Origin: Burkholderiales bacterium Ga0074133
GTDB lineage: Bacteria; Pseudomonadota; Gammaproteobacteria; Burkholderiales; Burkholderiaceae_C
Length of the DNA: 64,000 nt
Reading direction: 5' to 3'
Assembly (NCBI GenBank): GCA_001464865.1
Contig: LNEG01000001.1
Location: forward strand, 48,530-112,529
Both the position numbers and the translations under genes were made by a program. The notes beneath the pieces were generated by a model. The model was not told the origin of the DNA. It ran no database searches and saw only the letters and a program-made list of their open reading frames with translations. Shown here one piece after another: positions 24,375 through 59,894 of the stretch (position 1 is its first letter; every line of letters starts with the position of its first letter).

Positions 24375-24395
24375 CTTCTGAGCTTGTGGAGGAAT

Positions 24396-25009: not shown

Positions 25010-25276
25010 TCAGGCCGCTGCGGGCTGATCCAATGGCTTGTAGACGGCGGTCGGGACCACGTAAAAGGAGCGACCCTGCTTCACCGCCGGCGGCGACAGC
25101 AATCCCGCCTTGGCCCACCGACGCAACGTGGCTATGCAGGGGGCATCTGCTTTGGTCGCATAGGTCAGCTCGCGCCATGTATCGAGCTTGATCAGCGGAA
25201 CCTTGCTCGTCGCCAGCTTGATCTTTTTCGGATCGAGATTGGGGGCACGCTTGCGCGCGCGGGGTGTTCTATTCAT
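25010..25276 (-). CDS. Small MerR/excisionase-like DNA-binding protein
   Basis: IKLDTWRELTYATKADAPCIATLRRWAKAGLLSPPAVKQGRSFYVVPTAVY. Confidence 0.65.
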   Translation of the reverse strand: MNRTPRARKRAPNLDPKKIKLATSKVPLIKLDTWRELTYATKADAPCIATLRRWAKAGLLSPPAVKQGRSFYVVPTAVYKPLDQPAAA

Positions 25277-25289
25277 CACTGCACCTGCG

Positions 25290-35734: not shown

Positions 35735-35812
35735 GGTGTAAAAGATATCTAGAATGTCAATGATACGACTTTGGTGTATCGGTGATATCACTTAAACTCA
35801 AGTGATGATATC
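35735..35812. promoter_or_regulatory. Divergent control region: GGTGTAAAAGATATC plus inverted repeat GATATCACTT/AAGTGATGATATC
   Basis: Between divergent genes 34990-35700 and 35872-36642. Confidence 0.6.
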
Positions 35813-36654: not shown

Positions 36655-36684
36655 GAAAAAAGGCCCCTGATCCAGGGGCCTTTC
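36655..36684. terminator. Bidirectional intrinsic terminator
   Basis: AAAAAAGGCCCCTGATCCAGGGGCCTTTCT between convergent genes. Confidence 0.88.
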
Positions 36685-36695: not shown

Positions 36696-37715
36696 TCACA
36701 CAAGTCGCAGTCGCCTCGCTCCGCTGGCAGCAGAGTTGGCTGCCGCGACTGTGGTGTTGACGATGACAGCTGGGCCCTTGTGGAGAGAGATTTCACGGTT
36801 CATGCGGTGCGCCCGCAGTTCGAGAAGGCACTCAGTCGCAAGCTGTTGCTGCGTACCATCACCCCAGGGTTCATCCTCGAGCCAGGTTTCCAGATCAGGG
36901 TCAAGGAACTGGAAGTCCACTTGCGCCAAGGCCAGAGGCCGGTTCAAGGCCTTGATCGACTGGTGGATCAGTGGATCGTTGCCACCGTGTCCGTTGAGGG
37001 CTGTGTACTTTGGGTCGATCCTTTCGGCCTTGAAGTGATCGAGCAGGATTTGTCGGGCAACTTCGACTCCATCGCCTCTTGCAGATCCTGCGGCGAGTGC
37101 AGCTGAGGCCAGGCACTCTTTCGATCGGCCGCGGGTTGGGCTATACCCCAACAGCAATCTGGAACATTCAAGAGCTGCTGCCGTCCGTTCTATCTGCACC
37201 AGGTTGTCATTGTCTTGGGTGAGGCTGCACATGAGTGAGAGGAACCCTGCGGCGTACTCGTCATCATCGCTGTGACGGTATCGAATAGTGGTCTCGGGAT
37301 GCTGTAGCGCGTATTCGAGCATCTCAGGGTAAAGCTGTCGAGCTCCGATCTGGATCAGTGACATTCCCATCGGCTGCGGATCCGCCACTTTCTCGTTCTG
37401 CGCGTTCACGGTCGAGTCCATCCGCGTCATGAGGACATCGATTGGGCAGCTTGGCGCCAATTTGATCTGCACCGCGTCGCTTTCGAAAATGGCCTTGAAG
37501 ACATCAAACCGCCGGGCATAGGCGCAGAACCTGACGAAGGAGGTGCGGCCGTCGAGCCCAATCTCTCCGCCCAGTCCTGAGTGCAAATGCTTGATGCCCC
37601 ACTTGTCATCAAGGATCAGCTTCAAGACGATGCGCGCGTCGATTCCACTCCGAATGGCGTGCTCAAGCCTATGCCGGGATGCGACCTGCTGACTGGATTC
37701 AAGTGGTTTGGTCAT
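36696..37715 (-). CDS. Ankyrin-like protein with basic C-terminus
   Basis: Alpha-helical repeats; tail ANSAASGARRLRLV; start 4 bp after the preceding stop. Confidence 0.6.
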   Translation of the reverse strand: MTKPLESSQQVASRHRLEHAIRSGIDARIVLKLILDDKWGIKHLHSGLGGEIGLDGRTSFVRFCAYARRFDVFKAIFESDAVQIKLAPSCPIDVLMTRMDSTVNAQNEKVADPQPMGMSLIQIGARQLYPEMLEYALQHPETTIRYRHSDDDEYAAGFLSLMCSLTQDNDNLVQIERTAAALECSRLLLGYSPTRGRSKECLASAALAAGSARGDGVEVARQILLDHFKAERIDPKYTALNGHGGNDPLIHQSIKALNRPLALAQVDFQFLDPDLETWLEDEPWGDGTQQQLATECLLELRAHRMNREISLHKGPAVIVNTTVAAANSAASGARRLRLV

Positions 37716-37719
37716 GACT

Positions 37720-39072
37720 TCACAACATGTTTCGTCGAGTTCGTAATGCGCCGCCATTGGAATCAGCAGGCACTGCTGACTCCTGACGTTGCTGATCGAT
37801 GGCCATTGCCATCTCCTGTGCTTGTGCGCGCGCACGCAACGCTGTTTCAGCTGACATCTGAATCCTCGTGTCGCCCAGTCTTGCCGATGCGTGATCGATG
37901 GCCTTCACGAAATCCACCCATGGGGGCTCCAGGCACAGGGCACTGTGCGCACACTCCAGGTAGTGGATCAGGGCACACGGGTCGACATTCGCAACCAGGT
38001 TGAGGTCTCGGCTGTCAGCAGGCCTCCTCGCGTTAGCGTAGATCACCTGATCGACTGCGAACTGAAGCGCATCCAATCTGTCCGTAGACATACCCACCTC
38101 CACCATGACGGTCACCAGTCCGGCGCCTGCCTGAATCCAGGGCTGCTCTCTGTCAATGCGGCTGAAGAGTGCTGACGACACACCCTCGTGAACGGCGCTT
38201 TTCACAAGTTCAGATCTGCGCTGGCCCACGGCTTCGGCTGCCACCTTGAGGGCGCTTGCAGAATCGCTGTGCACATACCGGCCCTGCGCAGGGCAGGCGA
38301 GGAACAAAATCATCTCGCCAAGTTGCCTGCTGACAATGCGAAGCGTCTCCGGATTGTCCAGAATGAGGTCCGTCGGAATGCGCCTGGGCGTCTTGCCCTG
38401 TCGCGCGGCCGCCTGGGCCAGACCGGAGAGCTCAATCAGCCCAAGGCAGACTTCCCAGTTAACTGGGATGTCGACGCCTGGGGTGTCGACGCTTGCTTCC
38501 AACAGAGAGGAGAGCGCCAGGTCGTGGGTGGACGGGCGCAGATGTTCGAACGTGCTGCGGTGGGCAGCAAAGTCCGTGAGTGCCTCAGTTGTGAATCCAT
38601 CCCTTGTCGATGGCAAGCGCAACCCATGGGAACGCAGCAAACGCTCCATGACGGTGTGCCTGCTTTGCCTTTTCCTCAGGTGAAAACCCAGCCTGGGATC
38701 AAGGAGCACTGGATAGCGAAGGAGATCGGTGCTCACCACCTTCACGCATTTCTGAACAATGTCCTCTAGGGCCGTGGGCGCCATTGAAGATACGACCTGT
38801 GGCGCGCTGGTGATGGAGTGCACCTTGAACGAGCCGATCAAACGGTCTGCGATGTTGGGCGAATCGAGAAACGGCAGCAGCTCGGCAAGCTCGTTGGGAT
38901 AAGTTGCCGGCGAATTGAGGGCGATGGTCTTTTTGAACTGCGCATCGATCGGCTGCCTGCCGCGCAACAGATCGGATTCAAGATCAAAGTGTCGTGTCAG
39001 GCTGGCTGCTGTGGCGTCACACGAAGCCTCCTGCAATCGCTCAATGACGACGTTCGGCGTGGTGTGGATCAT
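37720..39072 (-). CDS. Unrecognised paralog family, member 1
   Basis: TTPNVVIERLQEAS; LLRYPVLLDPRLGF; LRLPSTRDGFTTEALTDFAAHRSTFEHL; tail ALRTRRNML. Confidence 0.75.
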   Translation of the reverse strand: MIHTTPNVVIERLQEASCDATAASLTRHFDLESDLLRGRQPIDAQFKKTIALNSPATYPNELAELLPFLDSPNIADRLIGSFKVHSITSAPQVVSSMAPTALEDIVQKCVKVVSTDLLRYPVLLDPRLGFHLRKRQSRHTVMERLLRSHGLRLPSTRDGFTTEALTDFAAHRSTFEHLRPSTHDLALSSLLEASVDTPGVDIPVNWEVCLGLIELSGLAQAAARQGKTPRRIPTDLILDNPETLRIVSRQLGEMILFLACPAQGRYVHSDSASALKVAAEAVGQRRSELVKSAVHEGVSSALFSRIDREQPWIQAGAGLVTVMVEVGMSTDRLDALQFAVDQVIYANARRPADSRDLNLVANVDPCALIHYLECAHSALCLEPPWVDFVKAIDHASARLGDTRIQMSAETALRARAQAQEMAMAIDQQRQESAVPADSNGGALRTRRNML

Positions 39073-39082
39073 GTCGGCAGCT

Positions 39083-40426
39083 TCACAACGCCGCGCGCCG
39101 TGCGCGCTGATGGGTCGGGACCGAGGCGGGTTGTGCCCCTTGTTCCGAGATGATGTCGCTCATCATCTGCGCGCTCGCCAGGGCCTGGAGGGTTGGCCGA
39201 GTGCGAGACCCAGCTGTCAGCCTGCCGGACTTGGCATGCTCGCTGACGGCATGTTCAATGCGCATCTGCATATCGATGAAAGGGAGGCGGACCTGGGCTG
39301 CCTGCGCAACATCGCGCACAAACATCTCAAACAGGTCGGGCTCCGTGTTGGTGCAGACTGAAACGGTTGATTCGTCGTACACGGGCACCAGGGCTTGAAA
39401 AATTCCCTCAGCTGCTGCCTCCTTGCTTGAGAACGCACCGCTCTTCACCCCCAGCTCGATCAACCATGTGCCTGCACTGCGGCCAACCCCCTCAGCTGTT
39501 TTTTCCTTCACACCGGCGCCATCAGGGATGAAATCGAAGACGGCGCGCTGAATGCCGGACGCGAGCGTAGCGGAGGCCAGAACACCGGATCTACAGAACT
39601 CCGCCAGGTGAGAGAAATAGGGGAGGCTGTCTGCGTAGTTGCGATCGGCGCGCTCCGAGAGGACAGACCTCCCCAAGGCGTACCCGAACATCCGCGTTAG
39701 GCGCCTTTTTCGTTCGTCATCTGCGGTAGCAAGTGTGTGTGAGCTGGGAAGCTTGAATCTTCCGGCCTGAACCATGCCACTGACAATCGTGGAAAGCTCC
39801 ACCACAGATCCTGTGATGAACCCGAACGAGAAGTTGACGCCATCCAAGTCTGATGCAATCTGGGCCAGGCTTGATCGCCCCTCTCCGGCGCACAACTGGT
39901 CAACAACGCTGGGGTGGGTGGCAAACGTTTCGAGCTGGGAGGTGCTGAGGCTGTCGACGCCTGAGGGCAGGCGAAAAGTTCTGCTTCTGAAAATGGCAGT
40001 GGGCAGCGACTCCATGGCTTCGTTGGGGTTGCACCTGTAAACGATCCGTGGATCCAACAGCACTGGGTACTGCACCAGCAAGTTGGTCAAAACCATCTGG
40101 GCGTGGGCGCGAAGATCGCTCACCTCCGCAGTGAGCTTGAACCCCCCAAAGTTCACGATCGATCCAGTGGACACAACACCGATGATCTGTTTGGCCACAT
40201 CGGTGGACCTCAGCAGGATTCGACAGGCTGCAGGGCCTGGTTTCACCGACATAGGTATCCAGATGGGCAGAGGCCGCTTGCCGGTCATGATCGGCTCGCC
40301 GCATGTCTCCAGGACTGCGCGCGATTCGCGGTTTTCGATCCCAATTTGCTTTGTCAGCGCAGCGTGAGACTTCTGTGATGCAGCCTGGAGGCGGTCAAAC
40401 ACCTCATTTGGAGTTGTGTAGTCCAT
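39083..40426 (-). CDS. Unrecognised paralog family, member 2
   Basis: TTPNEVFDRLQAAS; LLVQYPVLLDPRIVY; FRLPSGVDSLSTSQLETFATHPSVVDQL; tail RARRAAL. Confidence 0.75.
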   Translation of the reverse strand: MDYTTPNEVFDRLQAASQKSHAALTKQIGIENRESRAVLETCGEPIMTGKRPLPIWIPMSVKPGPAACRILLRSTDVAKQIIGVVSTGSIVNFGGFKLTAEVSDLRAHAQMVLTNLLVQYPVLLDPRIVYRCNPNEAMESLPTAIFRSRTFRLPSGVDSLSTSQLETFATHPSVVDQLCAGEGRSSLAQIASDLDGVNFSFGFITGSVVELSTIVSGMVQAGRFKLPSSHTLATADDERKRRLTRMFGYALGRSVLSERADRNYADSLPYFSHLAEFCRSGVLASATLASGIQRAVFDFIPDGAGVKEKTAEGVGRSAGTWLIELGVKSGAFSSKEAAAEGIFQALVPVYDESTVSVCTNTEPDLFEMFVRDVAQAAQVRLPFIDMQMRIEHAVSEHAKSGRLTAGSRTRPTLQALASAQMMSDIISEQGAQPASVPTHQRARRAAL

Positions 40427-40433
40427 GTCGGCT

Positions 40434-41783
40434 CTAGATGCATGCGCGCCGGCGCGGCGCAAGTGGTTGTGTGGGGCCGGAAGGAGGGCGAACCATCTGG
40501 ATTGCCGAGTGCATGGACTGCTGCAGAGCAGCGGCCTCAATGGCGGCCTCTACCTCTGCATGCTTCTCAGTCCTGTTGGCATCGCCCATCTGAGCCCTGT
40601 AGTCCTTGATCCGCTGGTGCATTTCGGTGAACGGCTGCGGCCGTCCAGAGCGAGAGCAGATGTGCTCAATCACTTCGATCAGCAGGGCGCCGGAGCCAGC
40701 TGGAACAACGTTTGGCGAGCTGGTATACGGTCTGGGCGGCATCAAGGTGGCGATGGCCATGTCCGCGGCCTCACGAATGGACGGTGTAAACCCCACCTTA
40801 ACCGCCGTGTCGAGCATGTCGGGCACCCGCGCGACATCGATGACGCCGGAGAAGACACCTTCACGAATCGCCGCTTTGAAACCATCGGCTGCACGTGCCA
40901 TCAGTTCATGGCCGCCCAGACGGTGCACGCGTTCGAGACCCGCCAAAGCGTAGGGCGTTGAATCGACGAAGAGCGTGGAATAGATGCCCGGCCTGGTCCG
41001 TGGCCATGCCGCCATGCAAAGCAGCCGGCCAACCCCGCCGGCCATGAGCTCACGCTGGCTCTTGTCATCTCCCATCAGGTGGGGAGACACTCGCCATGGC
41101 TTGCGCCCTTGCTGACGCCCGAGCAGGGCGTGCTCGTAGACCTCGAGGTAGCCTGCGTGTGCGTTGAGGATGCGGTAGTGAGCCACGGAGCTTGCGATGC
41201 GTGAGCCAATCCCGGCGTACTCGCTTTTGAGCTGCTGGAAGATCGTCCGGTGAGTCGCAAAGCTCACCATCTGCTCCTCGGTGTATCCATCCAGTTTCGA
41301 CGGCAACCGCAAGATGCCCGTGGTGGACAACACCTCATCGAGGTTCTTCAGGGTCTCTTCTGGGCCTACAGAGAATTTGATGCGTGAGTCCAGCAGGTAC
41401 GGGTGCCGAATCAGCGCATCAGCAAAAACGCTGCGTGCCTTTCTCACCCCCGCCAGGATTTCATCGGTAGAGCAATTTGCACCCGTGGAGGTCTTGAGGC
41501 TGTCACAGGCCATGATGGCTCCGACCATGCGCGTGGCCAGAAAATCCGAGTCCATCATCTTGAGCACATCGGGGTAACCCACGTCCGCGCGGACGGGAGT
41601 ACCGATGACCAATTGAGCGCCGAACCTGAGCCCTTTGATGGGCATGCGGTGCGAGATCTCCAGGACGCCCGTGGACTCCTTGGCCATCGCCATCGCAAAC
41701 ACCTTCTCGCCCTTGGCGAGTGAGGCAAGCAGCAGCCGGTCAAAGCACCCGTTGGGCGTCGGATCTAGGTTCGTCGAATCCAT
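40434..41783 (-). CDS. Unrecognised paralog family, member 3
   Basis: PTPNGCFDRLLLAS; LIRHPYLLDSRIKF; LRLPSKLDGYTEEQMVSFATHRTIFQQL; tail APRRRACI. Confidence 0.75.
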   Translation of the reverse strand: MDSTNLDPTPNGCFDRLLLASLAKGEKVFAMAMAKESTGVLEISHRMPIKGLRFGAQLVIGTPVRADVGYPDVLKMMDSDFLATRMVGAIMACDSLKTSTGANCSTDEILAGVRKARSVFADALIRHPYLLDSRIKFSVGPEETLKNLDEVLSTTGILRLPSKLDGYTEEQMVSFATHRTIFQQLKSEYAGIGSRIASSVAHYRILNAHAGYLEVYEHALLGRQQGRKPWRVSPHLMGDDKSQRELMAGGVGRLLCMAAWPRTRPGIYSTLFVDSTPYALAGLERVHRLGGHELMARAADGFKAAIREGVFSGVIDVARVPDMLDTAVKVGFTPSIREAADMAIATLMPPRPYTSSPNVVPAGSGALLIEVIEHICSRSGRPQPFTEMHQRIKDYRAQMGDANRTEKHAEVEAAIEAAALQQSMHSAIQMVRPPSGPTQPLAPRRRACI

Positions 41784-41799
41784 GGGTGTCCACCCCGAC

Positions 41800-44157
41800 T
41801 CAGGCGGGCTTGAGCTGGCGGTTGCGGCTGACCTGAGCGCTGTCGTGCTTCTTGATGTCCACCTTGTTCAGCGTCTTGGTGTCGAAGAACACGGTGTCGG
41901 CAAAGTGCGAAACGTCCTTTTTGAACTTGTCGTTGTGGCACTCGCGCGGGGCCAGGAACAATGTCGTCGGCAGGTTCTTCATGCCGCATTCGTTGGCCTT
42001 CTTCAGCAGGCGGCGACCATTGGGAGCGGTGTCGTACGTGTCGGTGAAGTAGATGATCGCGTCGATCTTTCGCTTGGCGTACGGGCTTTTTGCACCAGGG
42101 CGCACCATCTCGAAGATGCTCTCGATACCGGCCTGCAGGTTGGTGCCGCCGCGGCCGCCGTAGGTGATGCCCTTTTCCAGGAAGGACTTGTAGTTCTGTT
42201 CCGTGATGTACACGGGCTCGCCGCGCGCGACGGTGTCAGCAAAGACGATCACGACTTCAGGGGCTACGGAGCGCGACATCTTGCGCGGCATGTAGATGGC
42301 TTCGGTCACGAAGCGCTTGAGCTGCCCGTCGTTCACCGAGCCCGAGGTGTCGATCGGGATGAAGATCAGCGGTCGCTGCTCTTTACCCGGAACGGTGGAG
42401 CCCATGTAGGGCACGTCACGTTGATCTGCAAAACCCATGTCTGCGGCGTCGACGTGGTAGATCATCCACGGCTCGCCCATGTCGAACCGTGAGCCTTTGC
42501 CCGAGGCCTCCATGATCTTCTTGACAGCCATCTCCCACGAGATGACGGGCTTGAAGAAGTCGACCATCTGCGCCTTGGCGTAGTTGACCATGTGGCCGCC
42601 CGGATAGCGGCTTCCCACGCTCATCATGTCCTCGGTTGCCTTGTTGATCGCCGACACCATGTTCGACTTCGTAGCGGCGACTTCTTCGGCCACCTTGATT
42701 AGGTCGTCAAAGCCGAGCTTTTCCATGGTTGCGCCGCCAACGCCGGCGTCGTTCAGCGTTTTCACCAGATCTTCCGTGCTCATCACGTGGTTGTTGTGCC
42801 CGGGCACGTTGGGCGAAGGGATCATTCCCTCCGTTCCAGTGCCGTCCTGCGAAGCCTTGTCCTGAGCACCCGGGGAGCCTTCCCCCTGAGCGCCGTCACT
42901 TTCACCTGGTTGAGGCGCGCCGCCCTTGCCACGGCCCAGTGATCGCTCAAGGTCGGTGACTTGTACGCCGCCTTGAGGCGCGCTGCCCATGGGGCTGCCC
43001 GCCTTGGGGTTGAGGACCTGTTCGAGCACCTGCAGAGCAAGGGCAACACGTTCGGAAGGCTTCAGCACATCCAGATAGGGGGAGCCGGTTTTGGCGGTAG
43101 TGGTCGCAATGCCTGTGCCCACAGCGGCGGTGGTCAGGCGCGCGTGGATGGCGTCGCGCTCGCGCATGCAGGGATGCGTGGAGAGCTTCTGGAGCCCATC
43201 TACGACGGCCGCCAGGTCTTTGTCGGTGACTTTGGCAGGATTGGCCTTGGCAAGGCCGATGCGGCGAAGTTCTTGCGAGAGGGTGGAGAGGTCCGCAGGG
43301 GTCATGGACTTGCTCTTGCCGCCCATGGTCGTCGCATTGATCACGGAGACCTTCACGGAATCGGATTCCTGCGCTGCGCCTTCCATGATCTTGTCGAAGG
43401 GCACCTTCTCGTTCTTGACCTTGGGCTGCTCTTTCCACTCCTTGAGCATGAGGGCGGCAATGGCCTCTTCCGAGAGGCCGTCGAACTTCTTGTAGTCCTC
43501 GAAGTTCATGGCAACGCCGCCAGAAATAGCGGAGCATGCGGCTTCGTGGCGGGCAAGGAAGTCCTTCACCTCGTCCAGCAGCTCGTTTTCGCCGGGATCC
43601 TTGCTGGCATTCTTATCGGACCACGCCTGGCTGCAGCCCGACTTCAGGATGTCGATGTTGATCCGCGCATCCTGCGCCCAATTCGCCAACCCATTCGGGA
43701 AGTCCAGCATGCGGGACAGATGCAAGCGGCGGAGGTGATCTGCTTCGTGCCTGAAGATGAAGTTGAGCGAATCCAGGCCGGCGTCCTGCTCTTTGACCAG
43801 CTGCTCGAAGAATGGTGCCGCGATGAACATTTTTCCGCTCATGTCCACGAACGCGGTGTCGACCTTGGCCACCAGCTCTGGGAGGTCGTAAATCAGAATG
43901 GGCGTGCGAGAAACGATTTCACCGAGCAGACCTTCGCGCATGAAGTCGTGTCGGATGTTGCCCTTGAAATGGCTACGCATCTCAAGGAATGCGTCACGGT
44001 AGTCCTCGAGCTGGTCCTGCAAGTGCTGGTGGTTGGCGTTCAGCCGCTTGCCGCCTTTGCCAATGCCCAGGGCTTGCTCAACGGTCGCGGTGTTGCGCTG
44101 GACCAGTTGACCACCTGGTGGGTTGGTGGAATTGGATGCAGTGGATGCTGTGGCCAT
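41800..44157 (-). CDS. Putative metallopeptidase plus VWA-domain protein
   Basis: LNFIFRHEADHLRRLHLSRM; IFIPIDTSGSVNDGQLKRFVTEAIYMPR; GGRGGTNLQAGIESIFEM. Confidence 0.85.
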   Translation of the reverse strand: MATASTASNSTNPPGGQLVQRNTATVEQALGIGKGGKRLNANHQHLQDQLEDYRDAFLEMRSHFKGNIRHDFMREGLLGEIVSRTPILIYDLPELVAKVDTAFVDMSGKMFIAAPFFEQLVKEQDAGLDSLNFIFRHEADHLRRLHLSRMLDFPNGLANWAQDARINIDILKSGCSQAWSDKNASKDPGENELLDEVKDFLARHEAACSAISGGVAMNFEDYKKFDGLSEEAIAALMLKEWKEQPKVKNEKVPFDKIMEGAAQESDSVKVSVINATTMGGKSKSMTPADLSTLSQELRRIGLAKANPAKVTDKDLAAVVDGLQKLSTHPCMRERDAIHARLTTAAVGTGIATTTAKTGSPYLDVLKPSERVALALQVLEQVLNPKAGSPMGSAPQGGVQVTDLERSLGRGKGGAPQPGESDGAQGEGSPGAQDKASQDGTGTEGMIPSPNVPGHNNHVMSTEDLVKTLNDAGVGGATMEKLGFDDLIKVAEEVAATKSNMVSAINKATEDMMSVGSRYPGGHMVNYAKAQMVDFFKPVISWEMAVKKIMEASGKGSRFDMGEPWMIYHVDAADMGFADQRDVPYMGSTVPGKEQRPLIFIPIDTSGSVNDGQLKRFVTEAIYMPRKMSRSVAPEVVIVFADTVARGEPVYITEQNYKSFLEKGITYGGRGGTNLQAGIESIFEMVRPGAKSPYAKRKIDAIIYFTDTYDTAPNGRRLLKKANECGMKNLPTTLFLAPRECHNDKFKKDVSHFADTVFFDTKTLNKVDIKKHDSAQVSRNRQLKPA

Positions 44158-44345
44158 GTGCGGTTCTCGCTGAGGCTGTGCGAGCAGGGTGTGCTCGCGA
44201 ATGCGGGATTTGCGCGACAAAGCTGTCGCCTGAAATCGTCCTGGCGAGCCCTGAGACAGGCCAGATTAGTTGCATAAACTATATCACATTCACACAATAA
44301 TCCCCGTGTCTTGGGACGCGCAGCCAGCTGTCCTTCAGCGTGATT

Positions 44346-45479
44346 TCAATGCTTCCCGAGCACGCGCGCCTGTGCGATCGCGTATTCCCGTGAGAAGTCG
44401 ATGCCGATGTCGACTTCGGGCCTGACCTGCTGAATCCCGGCGTACAGCATGGACATGAGCTGCAGGCCGGTAAAGCTCTCCCCCAGGGAGGGAACGGCGT
44501 AGTCCGAGGATGGGTCGTTGATGGACACGCCGCCGGATGTGATCTGTGCCACCTCCAGAATGAGTTTGTTGCGTTCTTCGGGTGGCATTTTGCCCATTCG
44601 AAGCAGTGCTTCTGTCATGTAGATGACGACGTCACCCCTGACTTTGGACTCACCGGCAGCGTTGACGCGCATTCTCGTCTGAGCCAGCTGGGAGCTGACC
44701 TCCTTGGCTGCGGTGGCAATGTCAGAGCCGGCCGCCTTGGCGATCAGTTTCTTGACCACGTCCTGGGCGAGATCGAGCTCTTCGATGCTGGCCTCAAGGC
44801 CCATCATGGCCACGTTCATCGAAACGCCGAGGGCGCTGCGCAGATCGTCTGGATTTGCTGCAAGGACCTGTTGAAGAAGGGGGAGTGCCTCTCGATGCTT
44901 CTTCTGTTCAGAGAGAACGGCGCCGAGGTTCTTCAGCGCGCGCATGTTCGCCGGTTCAATGGCGAGTGCCTGGCGCTGAGCCCGCTCTGCCATCTCCATC
45001 TTCCCCAGCTTGAAGTAGGCGAGTCCTTGCGCCACCCAGATGTCCGCCTGCAATGGACGCATCTCGCCGGCACGACCCAGTCGTTGAACAGCCTCTTCAA
45101 ATCGACCCGTCTCGTTGTAGGCAAGGCCGAGGTTGTAGAGAACGTCGGCGTTGCTGGGATGCTCCCGGATGACGAACTCAAGGAAATCGATCCCCTCCTT
45201 GAAGTGACCCAGCCGAAACATGTGCACCGCCACGTTCTGCGGTGGCATGCCCGATGGCACAAAACACACCGTCACCAGCCCGTCGTCAATGGAGGTTGTG
45301 AGCACTCCGTGGCTCGAAGGATTCCAATTGGCATCTCCGGTGAGTTCCATTCCCACCTCTCGAACCATTGCCAGGTTCAGCGCAACCCCGAAACTGGCGT
45401 CAGAAGGGGTCTTTGCACCCGCGGGGAAGGTGCTGGTGTCGACCTGGTCAACAGGAATTTGTCGAAAGTAGGGTGTCAT
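44346..45479 (-). CDS. TPR-repeat protein
   Basis: NADVLYNLGLAYNETGRFEEAVQRLGRAGEMRPLQADIWVAQGLAYFKLGKMEMAERAQRQALAIEPANMRALKNLGAVLSEQKKH. Confidence 0.88.
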   Translation of the reverse strand: MTPYFRQIPVDQVDTSTFPAGAKTPSDASFGVALNLAMVREVGMELTGDANWNPSSHGVLTTSIDDGLVTVCFVPSGMPPQNVAVHMFRLGHFKEGIDFLEFVIREHPSNADVLYNLGLAYNETGRFEEAVQRLGRAGEMRPLQADIWVAQGLAYFKLGKMEMAERAQRQALAIEPANMRALKNLGAVLSEQKKHREALPLLQQVLAANPDDLRSALGVSMNVAMMGLEASIEELDLAQDVVKKLIAKAAGSDIATAAKEVSSQLAQTRMRVNAAGESKVRGDVVIYMTEALLRMGKMPPEERNKLILEVAQITSGGVSINDPSSDYAVPSLGESFTGLQLMSMLYAGIQQVRPEVDIGIDFSREYAIAQARVLGKH

Positions 45480-45509
45480 GTGTTCTCCGACACCGATTAT
45501 CGGGGAACG

Positions 45510-46925: not shown

Positions 46926-46928
46926 CGG

Positions 46929-49900
46929 TCAGGCCTTGAGAAATCGACGCGCCGACGCAGGGAGAGCAGCAGCCCGTGCAGGGTCAGGCTGGGATGAAGG
47001 AGGCGTGGACGGTGCGGGTTTGCCAGCCGCAGGTGTGTGGGCGCTCCGATGCGAGTTGGATCCCAGCAGCTGCAATCGCTTCATTGCGGTGGCCGGCATT
47101 GGGACGCTGGGGCTCCCATTTGGTGGTGCGGCCAAACGTGAAGGTGGTGCGGCGACAACTGGGCGCGTCCCAGCGGCCTGTGCAGAGCGGCGCAACCAGG
47201 GCTTGTGCTGTTGAGGTGGCGGGGTACCCTCCACCTTTGCTGCAGCAGGTGCTGTGGGTTGTGCTGGCGCCGCTTTGGGGACCTGAGGCGGTGTGGATGC
47301 AACACGTGCGCCGGCTTGGCGCAAAGAGACCAGGCTGACATGTTCTTTCGGACCAGAGATCTGGTCCCAGGTGTTCTTCGTTCCACCATCCGCTGGCTGG
47401 TCGCTGGTGCCAAAAGTGTAGGCAATGACCTTGTCCGAGCCCTTGGCTACCTTGGCATTTCGCGCGAACATGGCGGCATAGCCTGAGGAGGGTGGCTCAA
47501 AGCTCACCACGGCACCGCAATTGATCGCCATGTCGATTTCAGCGAGTCCGTCAACACCGGTCAACTGCATGAACCGCTCGTGGTAGTAGTTCGCTGCCGA
47601 GGCCGCACTCTGATCGGGTCCCACGAAGCGTGCTTCCTCGAAGGGTGCGGGCAGGTGCAACACCAAGCCTTTGACGGCGCTTTCCAGGTACAGGCGGACC
47701 GCGAGGTGGTCGGCCCAAGCTGCACCACCGCTGACCAGGATGTCTTCGGGACCCACGCGACCGCGCGCGTCGGCAACCATCGCCTCCCACAGTGCTTGGT
47801 CCATCTGCTCGTGCTTGTCGCGCCCGGCGGTGCCGATGATGGCAACGCGGCGACCATCTGCTTGATCGGTGGAACCTGCTGCAGGCACAGGTTGAGCCTT
47901 GTGTCCAGGCGACGCGGCCTTCGGGGTGATGGCCCCTTTTCTGTCGGTGCGCGGCGCCGTGGGGGATTGGCGGTCGTCCAGGTGGTTGATCCGCGAGTCC
48001 GGCAGTTCCATGAGGAATCGGCTGGGCTCCGACTCACGCGATTCGCCATTGTTCATGCGCTCATGGGCGTGGCTGATCGTGAGTGTTTTGCGCGCGCGTG
48101 TCAGCGCCACGTACATCAGCCGTCGCTCTTCCTGAAGTCCAGGGCCGTCGTCAGCTTCCACGTACTCATCCTGTGGCAGACCGCCCACGTAGACCATGCG
48201 AGACGCTTCTTCAATGGATCGACCGTTACCGCGCTGCTCGTCTTCTGCGATCGCGCGATTGTGGGGGAAGACGCCTTCCTCCAGGCCGGCGATGTAGACG
48301 TGGTCGAACTCCAACCCTTTGGAGGAGTGCACGGTCATAAGGCTGACGGTGTTCTTCTTGCTCATGTCGGACTCGGATGTCGAGGTCATGAGAGCAACGA
48401 AGGACAGGTATTCCGGCAGCTGCTCGGTGGCGGAGCGCAGCAAAGGGTTTTCGAGCTCGAACTGGCGCGCCGCTGAAATCAGTTCGGCGATGTTCTCCAT
48501 CCGCTCTTTGGCCTCGTCCTCGCTCGACTTGCTGCCGGTGGCCTCTTCGGTGTAGTGCTGCTCGATGCCCGTTTTCTTGAGGATTTCCTCGATCAGTCGG
48601 GACAGCGGCATGTTTTCTGCCGCATCAGCCAGGTCCAGGATGGTGGTGGTGAACGCGTGCAGTTGCCGGAGTTTCTTCTGTGCGGCCGCATTGCCCACCG
48701 AGGCCGGATTGAGCTGCATCATCTGGGCACGTTTGTCGACCATCTCGATCATCGAGATCCGCTCGGACTGGGCTTGCTGACGCAGATCCTCCAGCGTGCG
48801 CTCGCCAATGCCCCGGGGCGGGAAGTTGGCCACCCGAACGAAAGACAAATCTCGGCTGATGTCGGCTACCAAGTCGAGGTAGGCGAGGACGTTTTTGATT
48901 TCCTGGCGCTCGTAGAAGCGGAAGCCGCCGTAGACGGTCAGGGGAACGCCCAGTTTGTTGATCTCTTGTTCGAGAGCCCGGGACTGCATGTTCGTGCGAT
49001 ACAGGACCGCAATCTCCGAAGGGGAAACCCCGTCGTTCTTGATGCGGTCGTAGATCTTGGCTGCAATCGAAGCGGCTTCGAAGTGGCCGTTGCCATAGGT
49101 CACCATGTCGATTTGCTCACCGCCGTCGCTCTTGCTTGTTCGCAGCACCTTGCCGAGTCGGTTGGTGTTGCGCTCGATGATCGCGTTGGCGGCCTCGAGG
49201 ATGTGTGGCAGCGAGCGGTAGTTCTGCTCCAGGCGAATCATCCGTCCCTTGGGGCTCTTTGCATTGGCCGTCATGGTCTTCAGGAATTTCCCCATGTTCT
49301 TGGGGTCAGCTCCGCGGAAAGCGTAGATGCTTTGGTCGTCGTCACCCACTGCGGTGACATGGCACTTCGGACCCTTGAGGAGCTCAAGCCACTCGAACTG
49401 GATGTCGTTCGTGTCCTGGAACTCGTCAACCAAGATCGCGCGGAACCGGTCTTGGTAGTGCGATCGAACGGTCGAATTCGTTCGCAGCAGTTCGACGGCA
49501 CGCGCGAGCAGGTCCTGGAAGTCCAGAAGGCCCTGGCGATCCAGTCGTGACTGGTACTCGCCAAAAACGGCCTCCATCTGCTCTTCGTCGCTTGAGGACG
49601 CCGTCACCTGGGTGGTGATCAGCTCAGGCTTCTTGTTGCGCTCTTTCTTTTCGTTGATGTGCTTCACGCACTGCTTGGGCGTGACGAACTCCAGTGCTTC
49701 GGTGTCTTCTTCTTCGGCCTCTGCAACGCCGGCCAGTGGGTCAGCTGCAGACAAGAGGTCGGGCTTGGCCAGAGCAGCAAGCTTTTTCGCCTCCTTCACC
49801 GATGCCTTTGTCAGCCCAAAGTCTTTCAGGATGTTGCGAACCAGCGCTTCCTGGCCGTCCGTGTCCAGAATGGCAAAGGACTTTGGCAGCCCTGCTTCTG

Positions 49901-50411
49901 CGTAGTTCTCGCGCAGGATCCGATTGCAAAGGCTGTGGAAGGTGCCCACCCACAAACCGTTGATCGCACTCTTGTTCATCAAGGGGCGCAATCGGAGCTT
50001 CATCTCCTGCGAGGCCTTGTTCGTGAAGGTCACGGCCATGACGGCGGCGGCAGGAAGGGCGGGTTCGCCCTCGGAGATGAGTCGGGCAACACGCGCTGTG
50101 AGCACGGATGTCTTGCCAGATCCCGCGGCCGCCAGTACCAGTGCGGACTCATGGGGCATGAACACCGCTTCGCGTTGCTCTGTGTTCAGGCGGTCGTACA
50201 AGGCTTGACGGTTAGCAGCACGCTCCGCTTCACGCTTGGCGAATGCCGCCGCCGCCTCCTCATCGGACATCGGCAATCCGTCTGCGCGGTAGCCTGCAAC
50301 ATCGGAGTCGACCGCACCTTGCTCCACCACAGGCGGGGCGGCGCTTTCGAAATACTCTGCTGGCGCGTCCCAGGCGCCTTCGCCAAACGGGTCGTCGTAG
50401 ATGTTGCTCAT
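46929..50411 (-). CDS. UvrD/Rep-type SF1 helicase with C-terminal SLOG/DprA-like extension
   Basis: LNTEQREAVFMPHESALVLAAAGSGKTSVLTARVARL; VTAVGDDDQSIYAFRGADP; SLMTVHSSKGLEFDHVYIAGLEEGVFP; then RRVAIIGTAGRD...ILVSGGAAWADHLAVRLYLE...GYAAMFARNAKVAKGSDKVIAYTFG. Confidence 0.9.
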   Translation of the reverse strand: MSNIYDDPFGEGAWDAPAEYFESAAPPVVEQGAVDSDVAGYRADGLPMSDEEAAAAFAKREAERAANRQALYDRLNTEQREAVFMPHESALVLAAAGSGKTSVLTARVARLISEGEPALPAAAVMAVTFTNKASQEMKLRLRPLMNKSAINGLWVGTFHSLCNRILRENYAEAGLPKSFAILDTDGQEALVRNILKDFGLTKASVKEAKKLAALAKPDLLSAADPLAGVAEAEEEDTEALEFVTPKQCVKHINEKKERNKKPELITTQVTASSSDEEQMEAVFGEYQSRLDRQGLLDFQDLLARAVELLRTNSTVRSHYQDRFRAILVDEFQDTNDIQFEWLELLKGPKCHVTAVGDDDQSIYAFRGADPKNMGKFLKTMTANAKSPKGRMIRLEQNYRSLPHILEAANAIIERNTNRLGKVLRTSKSDGGEQIDMVTYGNGHFEAASIAAKIYDRIKNDGVSPSEIAVLYRTNMQSRALEQEINKLGVPLTVYGGFRFYERQEIKNVLAYLDLVADISRDLSFVRVANFPPRGIGERTLEDLRQQAQSERISMIEMVDKRAQMMQLNPASVGNAAAQKKLRQLHAFTTTILDLADAAENMPLSRLIEEILKKTGIEQHYTEEATGSKSSEDEAKERMENIAELISAARQFELENPLLRSATEQLPEYLSFVALMTSTSESDMSKKNTVSLMTVHSSKGLEFDHVYIAGLEEGVFPHNRAIAEDEQRGNGRSIEEASRMVYVGGLPQDEYVEADDGPGLQEERRLMYVALTRARKTLTISHAHERMNNGESRESEPSRFLMELPDSRINHLDDRQSPTAPRTDRKGAITPKAASPGHKAQPVPAAGSTDQADGRRVAIIGTAGRDKHEQMDQALWEAMVADARGRVGPEDILVSGGAAWADHLAVRLYLESAVKGLVLHLPAPFEEARFVGPDQSAASAANYYHERFMQLTGVDGLAEIDMAINCGAVVSFEPPSSGYAAMFARNAKVAKGSDKVIAYTFGTSDQPADGGTKNTWDQISGPKEHVSLVSLRQAGARVASTPPQVPKAAPAQPTAPAAAKVEGTPPPQQHKPWLRRSAQAAGTRPVVAAPPSRLAAPPNGSPSVPMPATAMKRLQLLGSNSHRSAHTPAAGKPAPSTPPSSQPDPARAAALPASARRFLKA

Positions 50412-50437
50412 GGTGTTCTTTCGGTGGCCGACGTGGC

Positions 50438-51016
50438 TCAGGGCCGGCGTCGAATTGCAGAGCGCTGCAGGCTCTGCGGTAAATCTGAATGGCTGGGCAC
50501 AGTGTTGGCCGCCTCGCCCCGGGCATTGAGGGTGCCGGCTTCGGCGATGAGCACGCGAGGAGCGACCGGAGCGGGCAGGGCTGCCGCTGCATGCCGCTCC
50601 ATGATGGCGATTCGGGCATCAATCACAGCGTCGTAGGCATTGGTCTCAGACCCCGCTTTCCCACCCACTGTAGGGATGCCCTCGACATAAACCTGCCATG
50701 CCCAAGATGAACCAGCACGCTCGGAGACGGCTTCGATCCATGGACGACCGGAAAGCCGTTTTCTTGTCTCGGCTGCCTTTTGTCGACCTTGCTCGTAAGC
50801 GACGGACAATTTGTCGCTGAAGCTCGCCGTTGCGTCTGAGCGATTGAGCATTCCATCGTAGAACCCTTGCAGGCGGGCGCGCGCCGGCAGACTGCTGGCT
50901 GATGCGATGAGTCGTGCAATGCGCGTGTCGCGCGCGGATTCTGGGCTGAGCGAAAAGCTGACAACTCGGGTGTCCGAATCGTCCACCGCATCCGTGCGCA
51001 AAGGTAGGGGGATCAT
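50438..51016 (-). CDS. Hypothetical protein with basic tail
   Basis: Intact ORF in operon; tail QRSAIRRRP. Confidence 0.65.
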   Translation of the reverse strand: MIPLPLRTDAVDDSDTRVVSFSLSPESARDTRIARLIASASSLPARARLQGFYDGMLNRSDATASFSDKLSVAYEQGRQKAAETRKRLSGRPWIEAVSERAGSSWAWQVYVEGIPTVGGKAGSETNAYDAVIDARIAIMERHAAAALPAPVAPRVLIAEAGTLNARGEAANTVPSHSDLPQSLQRSAIRRRP

Positions 51017-51040
51017 GTGATGGGGCTCCGGCGACAAGGT

Positions 51041-52075
51041 TCACATACGCGGGCGAGGGCCGGGGGGTGTTGCAGTCGCCTTATCCCCTTTCGAGTCCAT
51101 CGATGCAAACGAGGGGCCGACCACTTCGTTGATCGTCAGCTCAATTTCCGCCAGGCGGAGGCGAGATTCCTCCAAGCCAAAGAAGTTGACAGTGCTCTCG
51201 AGTGCGTACTGCATGGCCGCGCGCAAGCGGTCGTCATCGCTCATGGGTGCGTTGATCATGGACAGCGCGTCCATCATCACCATGCGCATGTAGTTGTTCT
51301 GGTCCTTGGCCATCCAGGGCGCGTCGATGTTGATGTCGTGCAGCAGTCCTTCGTAGACGTTGGCCTTGCCAGACTCATCGTAGTGAAGCGTCACCAGCTC
51401 ACCAGGCGCGACGATGCGATCGAGCGCAACGTTGTTGTGGACCACGATGTCCTGTGCGCCCACTTGTTGAGCGGAGAAATTCTCGGACACGGCAAGGACG
51501 CGGCCGGAGGAAACACCGGTGCTGCTAGCTGCCGGCTTGAGGAAGCGGATGACCTCGACACGCATCTCCAGCTCGGCCAGCTTCTTCACTGATGCCAACT
51601 CTGGGTCGAGATCGCCCTCGATGGGCTCAAGAGCGAGATCTTCGAAAGAGAAGGCCTTCTTCGGTGCGTTCTGCGTCGCGACCTTCGTCTGCACCAGCTC
51701 GCCAGCACCCAGGGCATTTGCAGACTTGGCTGGCTTGAGCGAACTGATGCTCCCTTGCTCAACCAGCTCCAACCCCTTTTTCACCAAAGTGCTGACGGGG
51801 CGGAAAGGCTTTTCCAGTGGGCTGCTCAGTGACAAAGGGCGCCAGGCTGACACCGGCTTGTCCGTCATCCAGAAGTTGCCCGTGAAGAGCACCCTGGTGG
51901 ACACGGCAGAGGCTTTGAGCTCAGGGCGAGTAACGAAGAAACCCGAGCTGGCGGGCTTACGCTCGGGAGGTGCCCACTCCATCATGCTGAGGACGCCATC
52001 GACACCGCGGGACACAGCCTGCTCTTGGCGTGCAGACAGGGGTGTGGGGGAAAGGGTTGGGCTGTTCAGGTTCAT
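51041..52075 (-). CDS. Hypothetical protein
   Basis: Intact ORF in operon; tail PPGPRPRM. Confidence 0.7.
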   Translation of the reverse strand: MNLNSPTLSPTPLSARQEQAVSRGVDGVLSMMEWAPPERKPASSGFFVTRPELKASAVSTRVLFTGNFWMTDKPVSAWRPLSLSSPLEKPFRPVSTLVKKGLELVEQGSISSLKPAKSANALGAGELVQTKVATQNAPKKAFSFEDLALEPIEGDLDPELASVKKLAELEMRVEVIRFLKPAASSTGVSSGRVLAVSENFSAQQVGAQDIVVHNNVALDRIVAPGELVTLHYDESGKANVYEGLLHDINIDAPWMAKDQNNYMRMVMMDALSMINAPMSDDDRLRAAMQYALESTVNFFGLEESRLRLAEIELTINEVVGPSFASMDSKGDKATATPPGPRPRM

Positions 52076-52091
52076 GGCTTTTCCTTGGTGA

Positions 52092-52928
52092 TCAATTTGG
52101 CTTGCGACCGGACGTCGCGGATGGAGTAGGGCTGGCCACTTGGTCCATGTCCTGACTTGCAGTGCGCATGTGCGCAACGACGGACGGATGGGCCATGGTC
52201 AGCTTTCCGCCATCAATCCGCAGAAGTGGCGTCTTCTGTCCAATCACTTCATGCGTGAACGCAGAAGTTGCGCGATCCATGACGCGTGCGGTTGGGGGGT
52301 GGAAGGCTTCAGGAACGATCGATCTGACAAGGTTGCCAAGGGTGTCGGTGATGACCCATCCGTGGACCTTCCTGACCGGGCGACCGTTTTCATCAGGCTT
52401 GGCCTGGGTGTGAAAAACCTTGTAGCCAATCAGATCTCGATCAAGGTTCTCCGGCTTTTTCAGCTCATCCAGAAATGAGGCCAGTCCGGGTTGGAAACCA
52501 GTGGCCTCTGTGAAGACCTTGAGATCGGACAGGCGCAACGCACCCGCTGGGAAAGCCATGTTGTTGGCTTCGCAGTTGCGCCATGACCGTATGTACGTGG
52601 AATGTTGCGTATTGGTGGTCGCGTTGCCGGTGAAGAAGCCGCCACTGCGGTTGCATTGCGTGTCGAAGATCTTGAGTCCAGATTCCACTTGGTGTGGATG
52701 AAAAGGAATCAAGCACGCGTCGATATGCCAGTGCCGGTCCTGGAACATCGCGGCCGGGTGTCTGGCTTGGTTCTCATATGCCGTGAGCACACGGGCAGCC
52801 TCCTCAACTTGCTGAAGCGAGAGCGTGCCCGCATCCGAGAGGCTCCGCCCGCTCTCGCAGACCCGCTTCATGGTGCTCAACGAGCCGTCATGGGCATTTA
52901 CGGTGCTGATCAGTGCGTGGTGAGGCAT
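52092..52928 (-). CDS. Hypothetical protein
   Basis: Intact ORF in operon; tail SATSGRKPN. Confidence 0.7.
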   Translation of the reverse strand: MPHHALISTVNAHDGSLSTMKRVCESGRSLSDAGTLSLQQVEEAARVLTAYENQARHPAAMFQDRHWHIDACLIPFHPHQVESGLKIFDTQCNRSGGFFTGNATTNTQHSTYIRSWRNCEANNMAFPAGALRLSDLKVFTEATGFQPGLASFLDELKKPENLDRDLIGYKVFHTQAKPDENGRPVRKVHGWVITDTLGNLVRSIVPEAFHPPTARVMDRATSAFTHEVIGQKTPLLRIDGGKLTMAHPSVVAHMRTASQDMDQVASPTPSATSGRKPN

Positions 52929-52930
52929 GG

Positions 52931-53641
52931 TCAAGCTTCCGTGAAGGGTGAGGGGCTGGCCAGGCTGGGGCGAATCGGCGAGCCCGAGAGACCGGGTTGG
53001 CTGAAAGTCGTAACGTCTCGTTTTGCATCCACCGGTGCGAAGGTCTTTCCCGCAGCGACGTCCGCCAGTACACGGGAGATGGGTGTTTGCATCGGCAGGA
53101 TGGCAGTCGCGACCTCGTGCTCATCCTTGAACTGACATTCGGCGAGGACTGCGTCGGCGTGCGTCGGGTGAATGGAATGAACGCGCAACCCCTTCTCGCC
53201 TTCGGCCTTGAAGAGCAGCACCCGCGCGCCATCGGTTTGGGCTCCGAGCTGGTACGGCAGAAGCGGGGGCACTTCCATGTGGCGCGCTTCTGCCTTGGAC
53301 ATCTCGGCGGCTTGCTCGGAAGGTGAGAAGACAAGGCGGGCGTTCTCGATGGCGCCGGCGTTGACGTCGATGAAAACGAGTGGCTTGTGTCCGGCCATCA
53401 CGTCGCTGGCCGCTGCCGAGAGGATGGCGTCGATGGAGGGCAGGGCATTGGCACGCTCGCATGCACTCCACACAGCGCCCTCAAGGTCCGCACGAACCAC
53501 GCCGAAAGGAAACTCGACCGCCCTGGAGCGATCCATGCAGACCATGATGGCGTCGCGTACCCCCAAAGAAGGGCGCTCACCGGTCTTGTATGAGCTGACA
53601 GAGCCGTTGTTGAGGGTGAGGGTGGTGTTGATCTTGGGCAT
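52931..53641 (-). CDS. Hypothetical protein
   Basis: Intact ORF in operon, 2-bp gap to the next gene. Confidence 0.7.
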   Translation of the reverse strand: MPKINTTLTLNNGSVSSYKTGERPSLGVRDAIMVCMDRSRAVEFPFGVVRADLEGAVWSACERANALPSIDAILSAAASDVMAGHKPLVFIDVNAGAIENARLVFSPSEQAAEMSKAEARHMEVPPLLPYQLGAQTDGARVLLFKAEGEKGLRVHSIHPTHADAVLAECQFKDEHEVATAILPMQTPISRVLADVAAGKTFAPVDAKRDVTTFSQPGLSGSPIRPSLASPSPFTEA

Positions 53642-53655
53642 GGGAATTCCTTTGT

Positions 53656-54633
53656 TCAGAGCGCAGCTGCGCGCCGGCGGCCACCGGGAGCGGGTACGGA
53701 TGGGTTGATCGAAGAGGCGATGTCTGCCGCATCAGAGCGAACGCTGGAAATGGACCGCTTCATCAGCTGTGCTTGCACACCCGGGATGTGCTCAACCAGG
53801 CCATTGCCCTTCATGCGGTCGAAGAGGTCGGCGCTGCTTTCACCCACGCATCCCATGGCCACAAGGAGCTCAACCGCAAACCCGTTCTTCGCGCCAAGGG
53901 CAGCCAGCATCGGATGGGTGGGACGGTTCCAGTCACCATCGAAGGTGAGGCCGGCCTTCACGAGGCGGCCGGTGATCTGGGTGGCGTAGTGCCGATAGGA
54001 AGTGTTGTTCCAGTCTCCGCTTCGGATCAAAGAGTTGACCGCATACTCGCCAACCTCCGCGCCGAGTCCCGCATCCAGCAGGGCAAAAACGACTTTGGGC
54101 GGCTCAGGATTCTTCCCGGCGGCCTGAATGCCGGTCCATTGGCCGATGGCCATCTGGAGCAGTGAATCGCGACCGGGACCGCTTTGAATGTGTTTGAGCA
54201 CATCGCGTGGGACATCGAGGTTTGCAACGGTGGCGCCGTATCCAATCAACAGGAAGACGTCCTGCGTGCGACCGTGGATGACCGCGTCATAGAGCAAGGC
54301 GCCGTAGCGAGGATCCTTCGCCGATGGCGTGTCGATGTTGAAGCCGTGGGCGATGGCCAGCATGTAACCTGACTGCACCCCTTCACGCAAGCAGGCAAGT
54401 GCGAAAGGAATCTGCTGACCCTTCTGGTTCTCGGGGTCGGGAATTTCCTCGAGCAGCAGAGATGGATCCTTTTGGATTGCACCCAGAACGGCTGCCTGCC
54501 GGCCCTCTCTGAGAGCTGTCGACACCAAGGACAGGACTCGTTTTCGCTGATCACCTGAAAAGACAGGTGCAGCTACCTTGCGCGAACTGGAGAGGCCAAG
54601 CGCCTCTTTGAAAAACGAATCTGGGGATGGCAT
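53656..54633 (-). CDS. Ankyrin-like repeat protein with basic tail
   Basis: RYGALLYDAVIHGRTQDVFLLIGYGATVANL; tail APGGRRRAAAL. Confidence 0.65.
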   Translation of the reverse strand: MPSPDSFFKEALGLSSSRKVAAPVFSGDQRKRVLSLVSTALREGRQAAVLGAIQKDPSLLLEEIPDPENQKGQQIPFALACLREGVQSGYMLAIAHGFNIDTPSAKDPRYGALLYDAVIHGRTQDVFLLIGYGATVANLDVPRDVLKHIQSGPGRDSLLQMAIGQWTGIQAAGKNPEPPKVVFALLDAGLGAEVGEYAVNSLIRSGDWNNTSYRHYATQITGRLVKAGLTFDGDWNRPTHPMLAALGAKNGFAVELLVAMGCVGESSADLFDRMKGNGLVEHIPGVQAQLMKRSISSVRSDAADIASSINPSVPAPGGRRRAAAL

Positions 54634-54785
54634 TGCGTCATACCTGCTCGACAGCCCATGGTGGGCAAGCGCAAAATCTGTATGAGTACAGTATATCGGA
54701 TATTACATACACCGTCCGTCTGATTCTTGCGGCTGGATACGCATACAGCATGCACACCTTGTGCGTTTGAGATATCTTGTTGAGC

Positions 54786-57056: not shown

Positions 57057-57132
57057 CTGTCGTGGTAGACTATGTGAAAAGGATATCAGATACGCATGGC
57101 TGTGACAACTTCCGGCCGCTTCACGAACTGGA

Positions 57133-59576: not shown

Positions 59577-59894
59577 TCAAACCTGAAATGGTGAAGGCCG
59601 CATCGGGGATCCCGCAATCTGCTGGCCTTTGGGGTTTGCATTCAGAGTCGCAGCATGTTCAGCGAACTCTTTGTTCAGTCGCGCAGCTTCCTTCCGGTAG
59701 CTGGTGATGGAGCTTTCGGGGATCACCAGGCGTGTACCGCGCGGAGTAGGCAACCCACCTACGTAGCCACGTGTGTTGAAGTAGAGCTCATCGAAGAAAA
59801 CACCCTTCAACAGCACCTCGTACCGCATTTCTTTCTCGGCGATGGACTTGCGATGAGGAGCTTCGACAATTTCGATGTATTTTTCGATTGGCAT
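59577..59894 (-). CDS. Hypothetical protein
   Basis: Intact ORF next to terminator. Confidence 0.55.
   Translation of the reverse strand: MPIEKYIEIVEAPHRKSIAEKEMRYEVLLKGVFFDELYFNTRGYVGGLPTPRGTRLVIPESSITSYRKEAARLNKEFAEHAATLNANPKGQQIAGSPMRPSPFQV

Follow-up and report, generated by a model that had tools for sequence, protein, structure and literature searches.

Organization of the two operons

The window under study, a stretch of 64,000 nucleotides from Burkholderiales bacterium Ga0074133, corresponds to the final 64 kb of a contig of 112,529 bp (termed C1) from a draft genome of 255 contigs. It harbours two tight runs of genes on the minus strand, operon A (54633-44346) and operon B (44157-36696), most products of which end in a linker rich in Ala, Pro and Ser followed by a compact arginine tail. 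This tail was not seen in the original prediction, which had been made from the letters of the DNA and proposed that both operons form an undescribed system. As only 188 bp separate A from B, the two may constitute a single transcription unit. All 13 open reading frames (ORFs) assigned to the runs were recovered and are coding-like in composition. The predicted tight spacing within the operons holds for junctions ranging from -4 to +30 bp but not for the last one as annotated, where paralogue 1 and the final gene overlap by 77 bp, an overlap that depends on the choice of start and disappears with a later one. Genes were called with a simple codon-usage caller, by which C-termini are set by stop codons only; starts may err and a few ORFs are possibly spurious.

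Operon A begins with a repeat-like protein (53656-54633, tail GGRRRAAAL), which shares 36% identity with its homologue on a contig of Hydrogenophaga sp. 2FB (NZ_SCML01000002.1, tail NRRRTASI) and about 30% with a protein of the Acidovorax carolinensis plasmid pACP4.1 (tail RTRRRLDSI). It is followed by two unknowns, gene 2 (52931-53641), which ends in SPSPFTEA without an Arg tail (50% in Hydrogenophaga, ending in TPSPFTGV), and gene 3 (52092-52934), which carries the weak basic tail SGRKPN (52% in Hydrogenophaga, SRTRPH). Gene 4 (51041-52075, tail PGPRPRM) encodes a KfrB domain that had previously been missed (PF18790, E 8e-11; 56% in Hydrogenophaga, tail ARRNRP), and gene 5 (50438-51037, tail SAIRRRP) is a lineage-specific unknown with no counterpart on the Hydrogenophaga contig. 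The next product (46929-50411, tail LPASARRFLKA) is a UvrD-type superfamily 1 helicase with strong matches to both UvrD domains (PF00580, E 2e-83; PF13361, E 1e-69), a disordered linker containing a KPWxRR motif and a C-terminal Rossmann-like domain; the whole protein is conserved over its full length in Hydrogenophaga (69%) and Acidovorax (55%). The C-terminal domain matched neither a PDB sequence nor a Pfam family; its best sensible Foldseek match is a type-I LOG protein (probability 0.99, TM 0.43, E 5e-3), and the predicted designation as UvrD-SLOG is therefore reasonable if read as SLOG-like. The operon closes with paralogue 4 (45510-46925, tail SPRSARRGI) and with a protein whose predicted TPR repeats were confirmed (44346-45479; TPR_1, E 8e-19; 54% in Hydrogenophaga) and which has no Arg tail.

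Operon B starts with a metallopeptidase-VWA protein (41800-44157, tail NRQLKPA), an assignment that is supported by a DUF2201 VWA match above cut-off (PF09967, E 7e-7) and by HEADH (HExxH) and DxSGS motifs, with HEADH and DTSGS being invariant across four sequences; its relatives in three other plasmid groups are 54-69% identical. The following genes encode paralogue 3 (40434-41783, tail APRRRACI), paralogue 2 (39083-40426, tail QRARRAAL), paralogue 1 (37720-39072, tail LRTRRNML; 36% in Hydrogenophaga, tail RRPRRVHV) and a last repeat-like protein (36696-37796, tail SGARRLRLV; 36% in Hydrogenophaga, tail KPRRLRLV). The latter and the first product of operon A had been described as ankyrin-like, a description that Pfam does not back at any level up to E<=10. 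As predicted, the four paralogues form one family in hidden Markov model (HMM) searches, which comprises 13-14 members across four plasmid groups and is modelled by AlphaFold2 as an all-alpha solenoid (pLDDT 75 and pTM 0.74 for paralogue 3), with no significant match among solved structures in the PDB. Downstream of operon B, the predicted bidirectional intrinsic terminator is present between convergent genes (36655-36684, AGGCCCCTGgatCAGGGGCCTTTTTT), with a perfect stem and a T run.

The plasmid and its transfer system

Judged by its content, C1 is a plasmid, as it encodes a Rep3 initiator, ParA, a ParB-like protein and RdgC, and it is probably incomplete since the contig ends do not overlap with each other. 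C1 also contains the set of a Dot/Icm-type (MPF_I) transfer system, defined by PF12696, PF23127, PF12293, PF03743, PF16932 and PF00437 for DotL, DotM, DotH, a DotG/TrbI-like protein, DotC and DotB. Within the window, these include DotM, a component of the coupling complex (28903-30177, plus strand; PF23127, E 1e-46), and the TraG-like coupling ATPase DotL/IcmO (30864-33668, plus strand; PF12696), and DotH, the TrbI/DotG-like protein, DotC and DotB are encoded in the left part of the contig together with DnaB/DnaC-like helicase proteins. Three further contigs of the same genome (C3, C4 and C9) probably belong to the same plasmid, an assignment that was made by homology to the Hydrogenophaga contig and by the shared motif and tails described below and not by assembly.

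Conservation of the operons in related plasmids

Relatives of the VWA protein are rare. They were found in one of 399 genomes of the order and in three of 401 of the family, where two of the three matches are, by coordinates and score, the Methylibium replicon RPME01 itself and an identical-scoring copy, and two matches were obtained in GTDB contigs. In IMG/VR the protein had no match. A phage origin was rejected on this ground, on the weakness of the only phage hit of the VWA protein and on the lack of any phage match of the paralogue.

On the Hydrogenophaga contig the set is conserved together and the gene order is retained, from rep/par, rdgC, dotM and dotL through operon B and operon A to a 797-aa helicase. 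Identities to the window amount to 69% for the VWA and UvrD-SLOG proteins, 56% for the KfrB-domain protein and 54% for the TPR protein, and to only 23-36% for the paralogues, of which operon B of Hydrogenophaga contains two rather than three; two extra genes lie between those of the VWA and TPR proteins. In the Acidovorax carolinensis plasmids pACP3.1/pACP4.1, UvrD-SLOG (55%) and VWA (54%) are found near each other beside rdgC, with the paralogues residing elsewhere on the plasmid, far from VWA; genes at the equivalent Acidovorax position were considered as paralogues and rejected because they are not homologous. In RPME01, three paralogues arranged in tandem lie at a distance of 18 kb from VWA (55%), and UvrD-SLOG is absent. 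The proposal of an undescribed system thus holds insofar as the genes constitute a conserved, co-oriented and undescribed set with repeat scaffolds, VWA and UvrD-SLOG, but not in the sense of a self-contained machine, because VWA occurs without UvrD-SLOG in RPME01 and the Acidovorax paralogues are remote from VWA. Homologues of DotL (50-67%) are present on all four plasmid groups that carry the tail. Operons A and B are part of the backbone of large conjugative plasmids of the Dot/Icm type (MPF_I), which make up a rare family in Burkholderiales. A distant VWA relative is encoded near DotI and DotH genes on a gammaproteobacterial Dot/Icm-type plasmid, from Shewanella xiamenensis, without Arg tails (~20001-26000), and the link between VWA and Dot/Icm plasmids may therefore be a wider one.

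A GTGTA/GATATC motif had been predicted to precede each operon. The motif is real, but its copies at both promoters are degenerate, with the promoter-like element GTGTATGTAATATCCGATATACTGT upstream of operon A (54688-54712, minus strand) and a degenerate GTGTA/GATAT element upstream of operon B (44278-44295, minus strand). In a search that permitted spacers of 2 to 5 bases, nearly all sites showed a spacer of 3, and clean GTGTA-N3-GATA[TC] sites were counted 14 times on the Hydrogenophaga contig, 7 times on pACP4.1, 6 times on C9, 4 times on C1 and 3 times in the whole of RPME01, compared to none in 334 kb of chromosomal contigs. Most sites precede a gene by a few tens of bases, and the motif resembles a promoter or operator used throughout the plasmid. 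It is also found in the window at 35736-35789, and the GATATC palindrome is over-represented on C1 (25 positions compared to 7.7 expected).

A C-terminal arginine tail

When the C-termini of the operon products are compared side by side, endings such as RTRRNML, RARRAAL, PRRRACI, SARRGI, ARRLRLV, RRRAAAL and AIRRRP display a common pattern, typically RxRRxx[LIV] or RRRP. In 50% of the operon proteins Arg is found at positions -4 to -6, and the last 12 residues are almost devoid of Asp and Glu. For quantification, we employed a simple definition requiring at least three Arg and no Asp or Glu in the last nine residues, which was written after inspection of C1 and the Hydrogenophaga contig and was applied unchanged to pACP4.1, RPME01, controls and chromosomes, and a stricter variant, devised later, which additionally demands an aliphatic, Pro or Met terminus and a linker. 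The plasmid-like contigs C3, C4 and C9 were left out of the chromosomal background of the window's genome.

By the simple definition, the tail is carried by 41 of 187 proteins of the Hydrogenophaga contig, 11 of 80 of C1, 18 of 64 of C4, 14 of 117 of C9, 38 of 479 of RPME01 and 13 of 206 of pACP4.1, compared to 4/213 and 2/107 on chromosomal contigs; the tailed genes of C4 form a consecutive run with the ending xRRR[GA][LI]. With the stricter test the numbers drop to 23/187 for the Hydrogenophaga contig, 7/80 for C1 and 12/64 for C4, against chromosomal values of 1/213 and 0/107. Strict tests found no such protein on the control MPF_I plasmids from Pseudomonas (pND6-2), Bordetella flabilis and Shewanella, the first two of which match C1 in GC and Arg content. 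The possibility that the tail is a by-product of high-GC sequence was rejected, as it is absent from control plasmids of matching GC content and from chromosomes. Within the operons, 7 of 13 genes are tailed, four of the seven being members of the paralogue family, compared to 7 of 360 chromosomal genes (p=2.8e-8) and 5 of 68 in the remainder of C1 (p=2.7e-4). With each family represented by a single member, the tail is found in 17.5% of the families of the Hydrogenophaga contig, as opposed to 2.3% of chromosomal families (p=2e-8) and 0.8% in the control MPF_I plasmids. In RPME01, tailed genes cluster beside VWA (16/35 vs 22/444 elsewhere, p=1.3e-10).

The tail extends over about 19 families unrelated in sequence, each carrying it on two different replicons, and these include RecJ, an ATP-dependent ligase domain, nucleotidyltransferases of the AbiEii and NTP_transf_8 types, a kinase that by eye is HipA-like and an array family of about 37 members. 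An example outside the operons is the AbiEii-type nucleotidyltransferase at 6542-7348 (plus strand; PF08843, E 1e-17), whose tail SAIKRRRP corresponds to KASRRRKI in its Hydrogenophaga homologue. Recognisable proteins of transfer, replication and partition do not carry the tail. In orthologues the tail is kept while the preceding linkers are no longer alignable, and the codons of the tail are mixed, which together argue that selection acts on the peptide. We found no published description of this tail in the literature within our reach, which excluded most subscription papers.

The array family consists of consecutive unknowns of ~230-320 residues, nearly all of which end in xRRR[GA][LI], and its arrays are located at 19-38 kb of C4 and at 108-129 kb of the Hydrogenophaga contig. 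The HipA-like kinase (C1:18691-20943) lies inside the transfer gene region and ends in APAPRRSRSPR, and its relative on pACP4.1 is also basic-tailed.

The DotL proteins of tailed plasmids contain a C-terminal extension of 284-309 residues with a net charge of -38 to -55 (-42 for residues 650-934 of the protein encoded in the window, a candidate receptor for the tail), whereas the extension in untailed control plasmids is shorter, with a net charge of -11 to -24.

Discussion

That an Arg tail is shared within the backbone of a Dot/Icm conjugation plasmid suggests conjugative protein cargo more than it does a conflict system. This tail resembles an address label that could send proteins into the recipient together with the plasmid DNA, and we favour, with a probability of roughly 0.45, the interpretation that operons A and B are part of an MPF_I plasmid backbone and encode proteins that are recruited to type IV secretion by this tail and accompany the plasmid to help it become established. 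We infer that the tail would dock on the coupling ATPase DotL, at its acidic C-terminal extension or at an adaptor located there, and that the tailed protein would be passed to the recipient either with the plasmid DNA or in parallel. In the recipient, UvrD-SLOG might help incoming single strands to become duplex DNA and the KfrB-domain and alpha-solenoid proteins might aid in establishing or maintaining the plasmid; the VWA metallopeptidase might act on the cargo or regulate it. There is precedent for several of these steps. Proteins are known to reach recipients through conjugation machines, as the Sog primase does via the MPF_I system of IncI1 (PMC8406263), some type IV substrates have positively charged C-terminal signals (PMC10025392, PMC11288057), and the long C-terminal tail of DotL is a platform for partners of the coupling complex (PMC12857230). 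The UvrD of the recipient is required for the conversion of the incoming strand from single- to double-stranded DNA (PMC10085688), and UvrD domains in conjugative polyvalent proteins have been proposed to act on transferred single-stranded DNA (PMC5512222). A broader version, which we regard as tentative and would rather bet against, holds that the compact tail with Arg at -4 to -6 and a terminal Leu, Ile, Val or Pro could be a general export code of this plasmid family. The acidic DotL extension would read it, and dozens of proteins, namely a DNA-establishment kit and an extensive array of paralogues resembling effectors, would be sent into recipient bacteria.

Several observations weigh against delivery by a secretion signal. 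Known Dot/Icm signals are Glu-rich (PMC10025392), and Legionella effectors make their contacts on IcmS/W and DotM and not on DotL (PMC12857230), while DotM as acidic receptor had to be rejected in our case, its C-domain being no different in charge from controls. The DotL extensions of control plasmids are also acidic, only less so. The TPR protein and gene 2 of operon A carry no tail, and blastp detected no homologue of the DotB, DotC or DotO of C1 on the Hydrogenophaga contig. A relaxase (PF03432), the obligate substrate, was not matched on C1, RPME01 or pACP4.1, although the latter two are typed as MOBP by MOB-suite. Finally, basic tails bind nucleic acids too. The latter property underlies the main alternative, in which the tail would be no secretion signal and would instead, by binding nucleic acid or docking, retain DNA-handling proteins encoded by the plasmid on its DNA or at a common donor hub. 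Compact groups of Arg that follow a disordered linker are typical of nucleic-acid-binding tails, and the tailed proteins include UvrD, RecJ, the ATP-dependent ligase domain and nucleotidyltransferases; yet classical DNA-binding proteins of the plasmid (Rep, ParB, RdgC and the DnaB-like helicase) have no tail, no role on DNA is known for the array and solenoid proteins, and the fixed position with a frequent terminal Leu, Ile, Val or Pro suggests that a free C-terminus is recognised. On balance we find this account unlikely, though a serious contender.

The original prediction had described the operons as a 'DNA-processing or conflict machine'. DNA processing is compatible with the presence of UvrD and KfrB, and a function in anti-phage defence or inter-plasmid conflict could be invoked from the known occurrence of UvrD helicases and SLOG domains in defence systems and from AbiEii- and HipA-like proteins on the same contig. 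We nevertheless deem such a function improbable, as PADLOC returned only generic UvrD (GajB/DRT-type) matches for six operon proteins, the genes are embedded with transfer genes in a conserved plasmid core, and the set does not occur as a fixed unit. It is least probable, in our view, that these are ordinary maintenance operons whose tails arose from paralogy or from compositional drift of sequence close to the stop codon. Genes of the KfrB type are known to serve plasmid stability, and many tailed proteins fall into one array and one solenoid family, but the enrichment persists with one member counted per family, unrelated families share the tail on two replicons each, its codons are mixed, and MPF_I plasmids of matching GC content are free of it.

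The closest parallel to the proposed recruitment signal is found in the C-terminal Arg-type transport signals of Agrobacterium VirB/VirD4 substrates, as far as these are described in a secondary account (Vergunst et al. 2005, via PMC10025392), where a positive charge dominated by Arg is likewise common to unrelated proteins of one type IV system. The tail found here differs in its compactness, the cluster being located at -4 to -6 and the last residue being aliphatic or Pro, and in its occurrence in dozens of families of a Dot/Icm-type conjugative plasmid, where transport would be its presumed role. As in the F conjutome and the IncI1 Sog primase, the latter sharing the MPF_I type, a plasmid conjugation machine could carry proteins of DNA metabolism, although the families differ and those papers describe no shared short tag for their substrates (PMC8406263, PMC11288057). 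Polyvalent proteins (PMC5512222) similarly supply element-encoded DNA-processing domains, including UvrD, with a proposed early role in the new host, but combine them in one giant multidomain protein instead of separate proteins united by a tail. With DUF2201 metallopeptidase-VWA/MoxR AAA+ systems, the VWA protein has its DUF2201 VWA domain and the HExxH N-terminal domain in common. The original prediction of a chaperone-like role for this protein was not upheld, as the usual motor is missing: a MoxR-like AAA+ gene (AAA_5, PF07728) was not found on C1, the Hydrogenophaga contig or pACP4.1, and a MoxR-VWA chaperone pair was rejected because three of the four plasmids lack it. Gabija (GajA/GajB) and other defence systems also contain a UvrD-type helicase; here, it is fused to a SLOG-like domain and resides in a transfer core, and a scan of operon proteins revealed no GajA nuclease as its partner.

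Known signals that mark proteins as cargo of conjugation are heterogeneous. A short tag that can be read from sequence, is present in many unrelated families of one plasmid family and is absent from related plasmids makes the question of what marks a protein for such transfer directly testable. It also offers a first functional handle on dozens of otherwise featureless megaplasmid genes, including those of operons A and B.

Neighbouring genes and further motifs

The left edge of the window (58-2625) contains an array of 22 tRNA genes for many amino acids. Next to operon A, a C5-cytosine DNA methyltransferase and a divergent DEAD_2/Helicase_C_2 (XPD/DinG-like) helicase are encoded at 56010-59526, and the synteny of the helicase is kept in Hydrogenophaga. 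A second C-terminal ending, PSPF (as in SPSPFTEA, TPSPFTGV and RPSPFQV), is found on proteins without an Arg tail, in the window at 52931-53641 and 59577-59894. The short motif KPWxR[RK] is present in the disordered linker of UvrD-SLOG (46929-50411) in three plasmids and recurs at the extreme C-terminus of a conserved protein encoded upstream of DotM (27541-28515).

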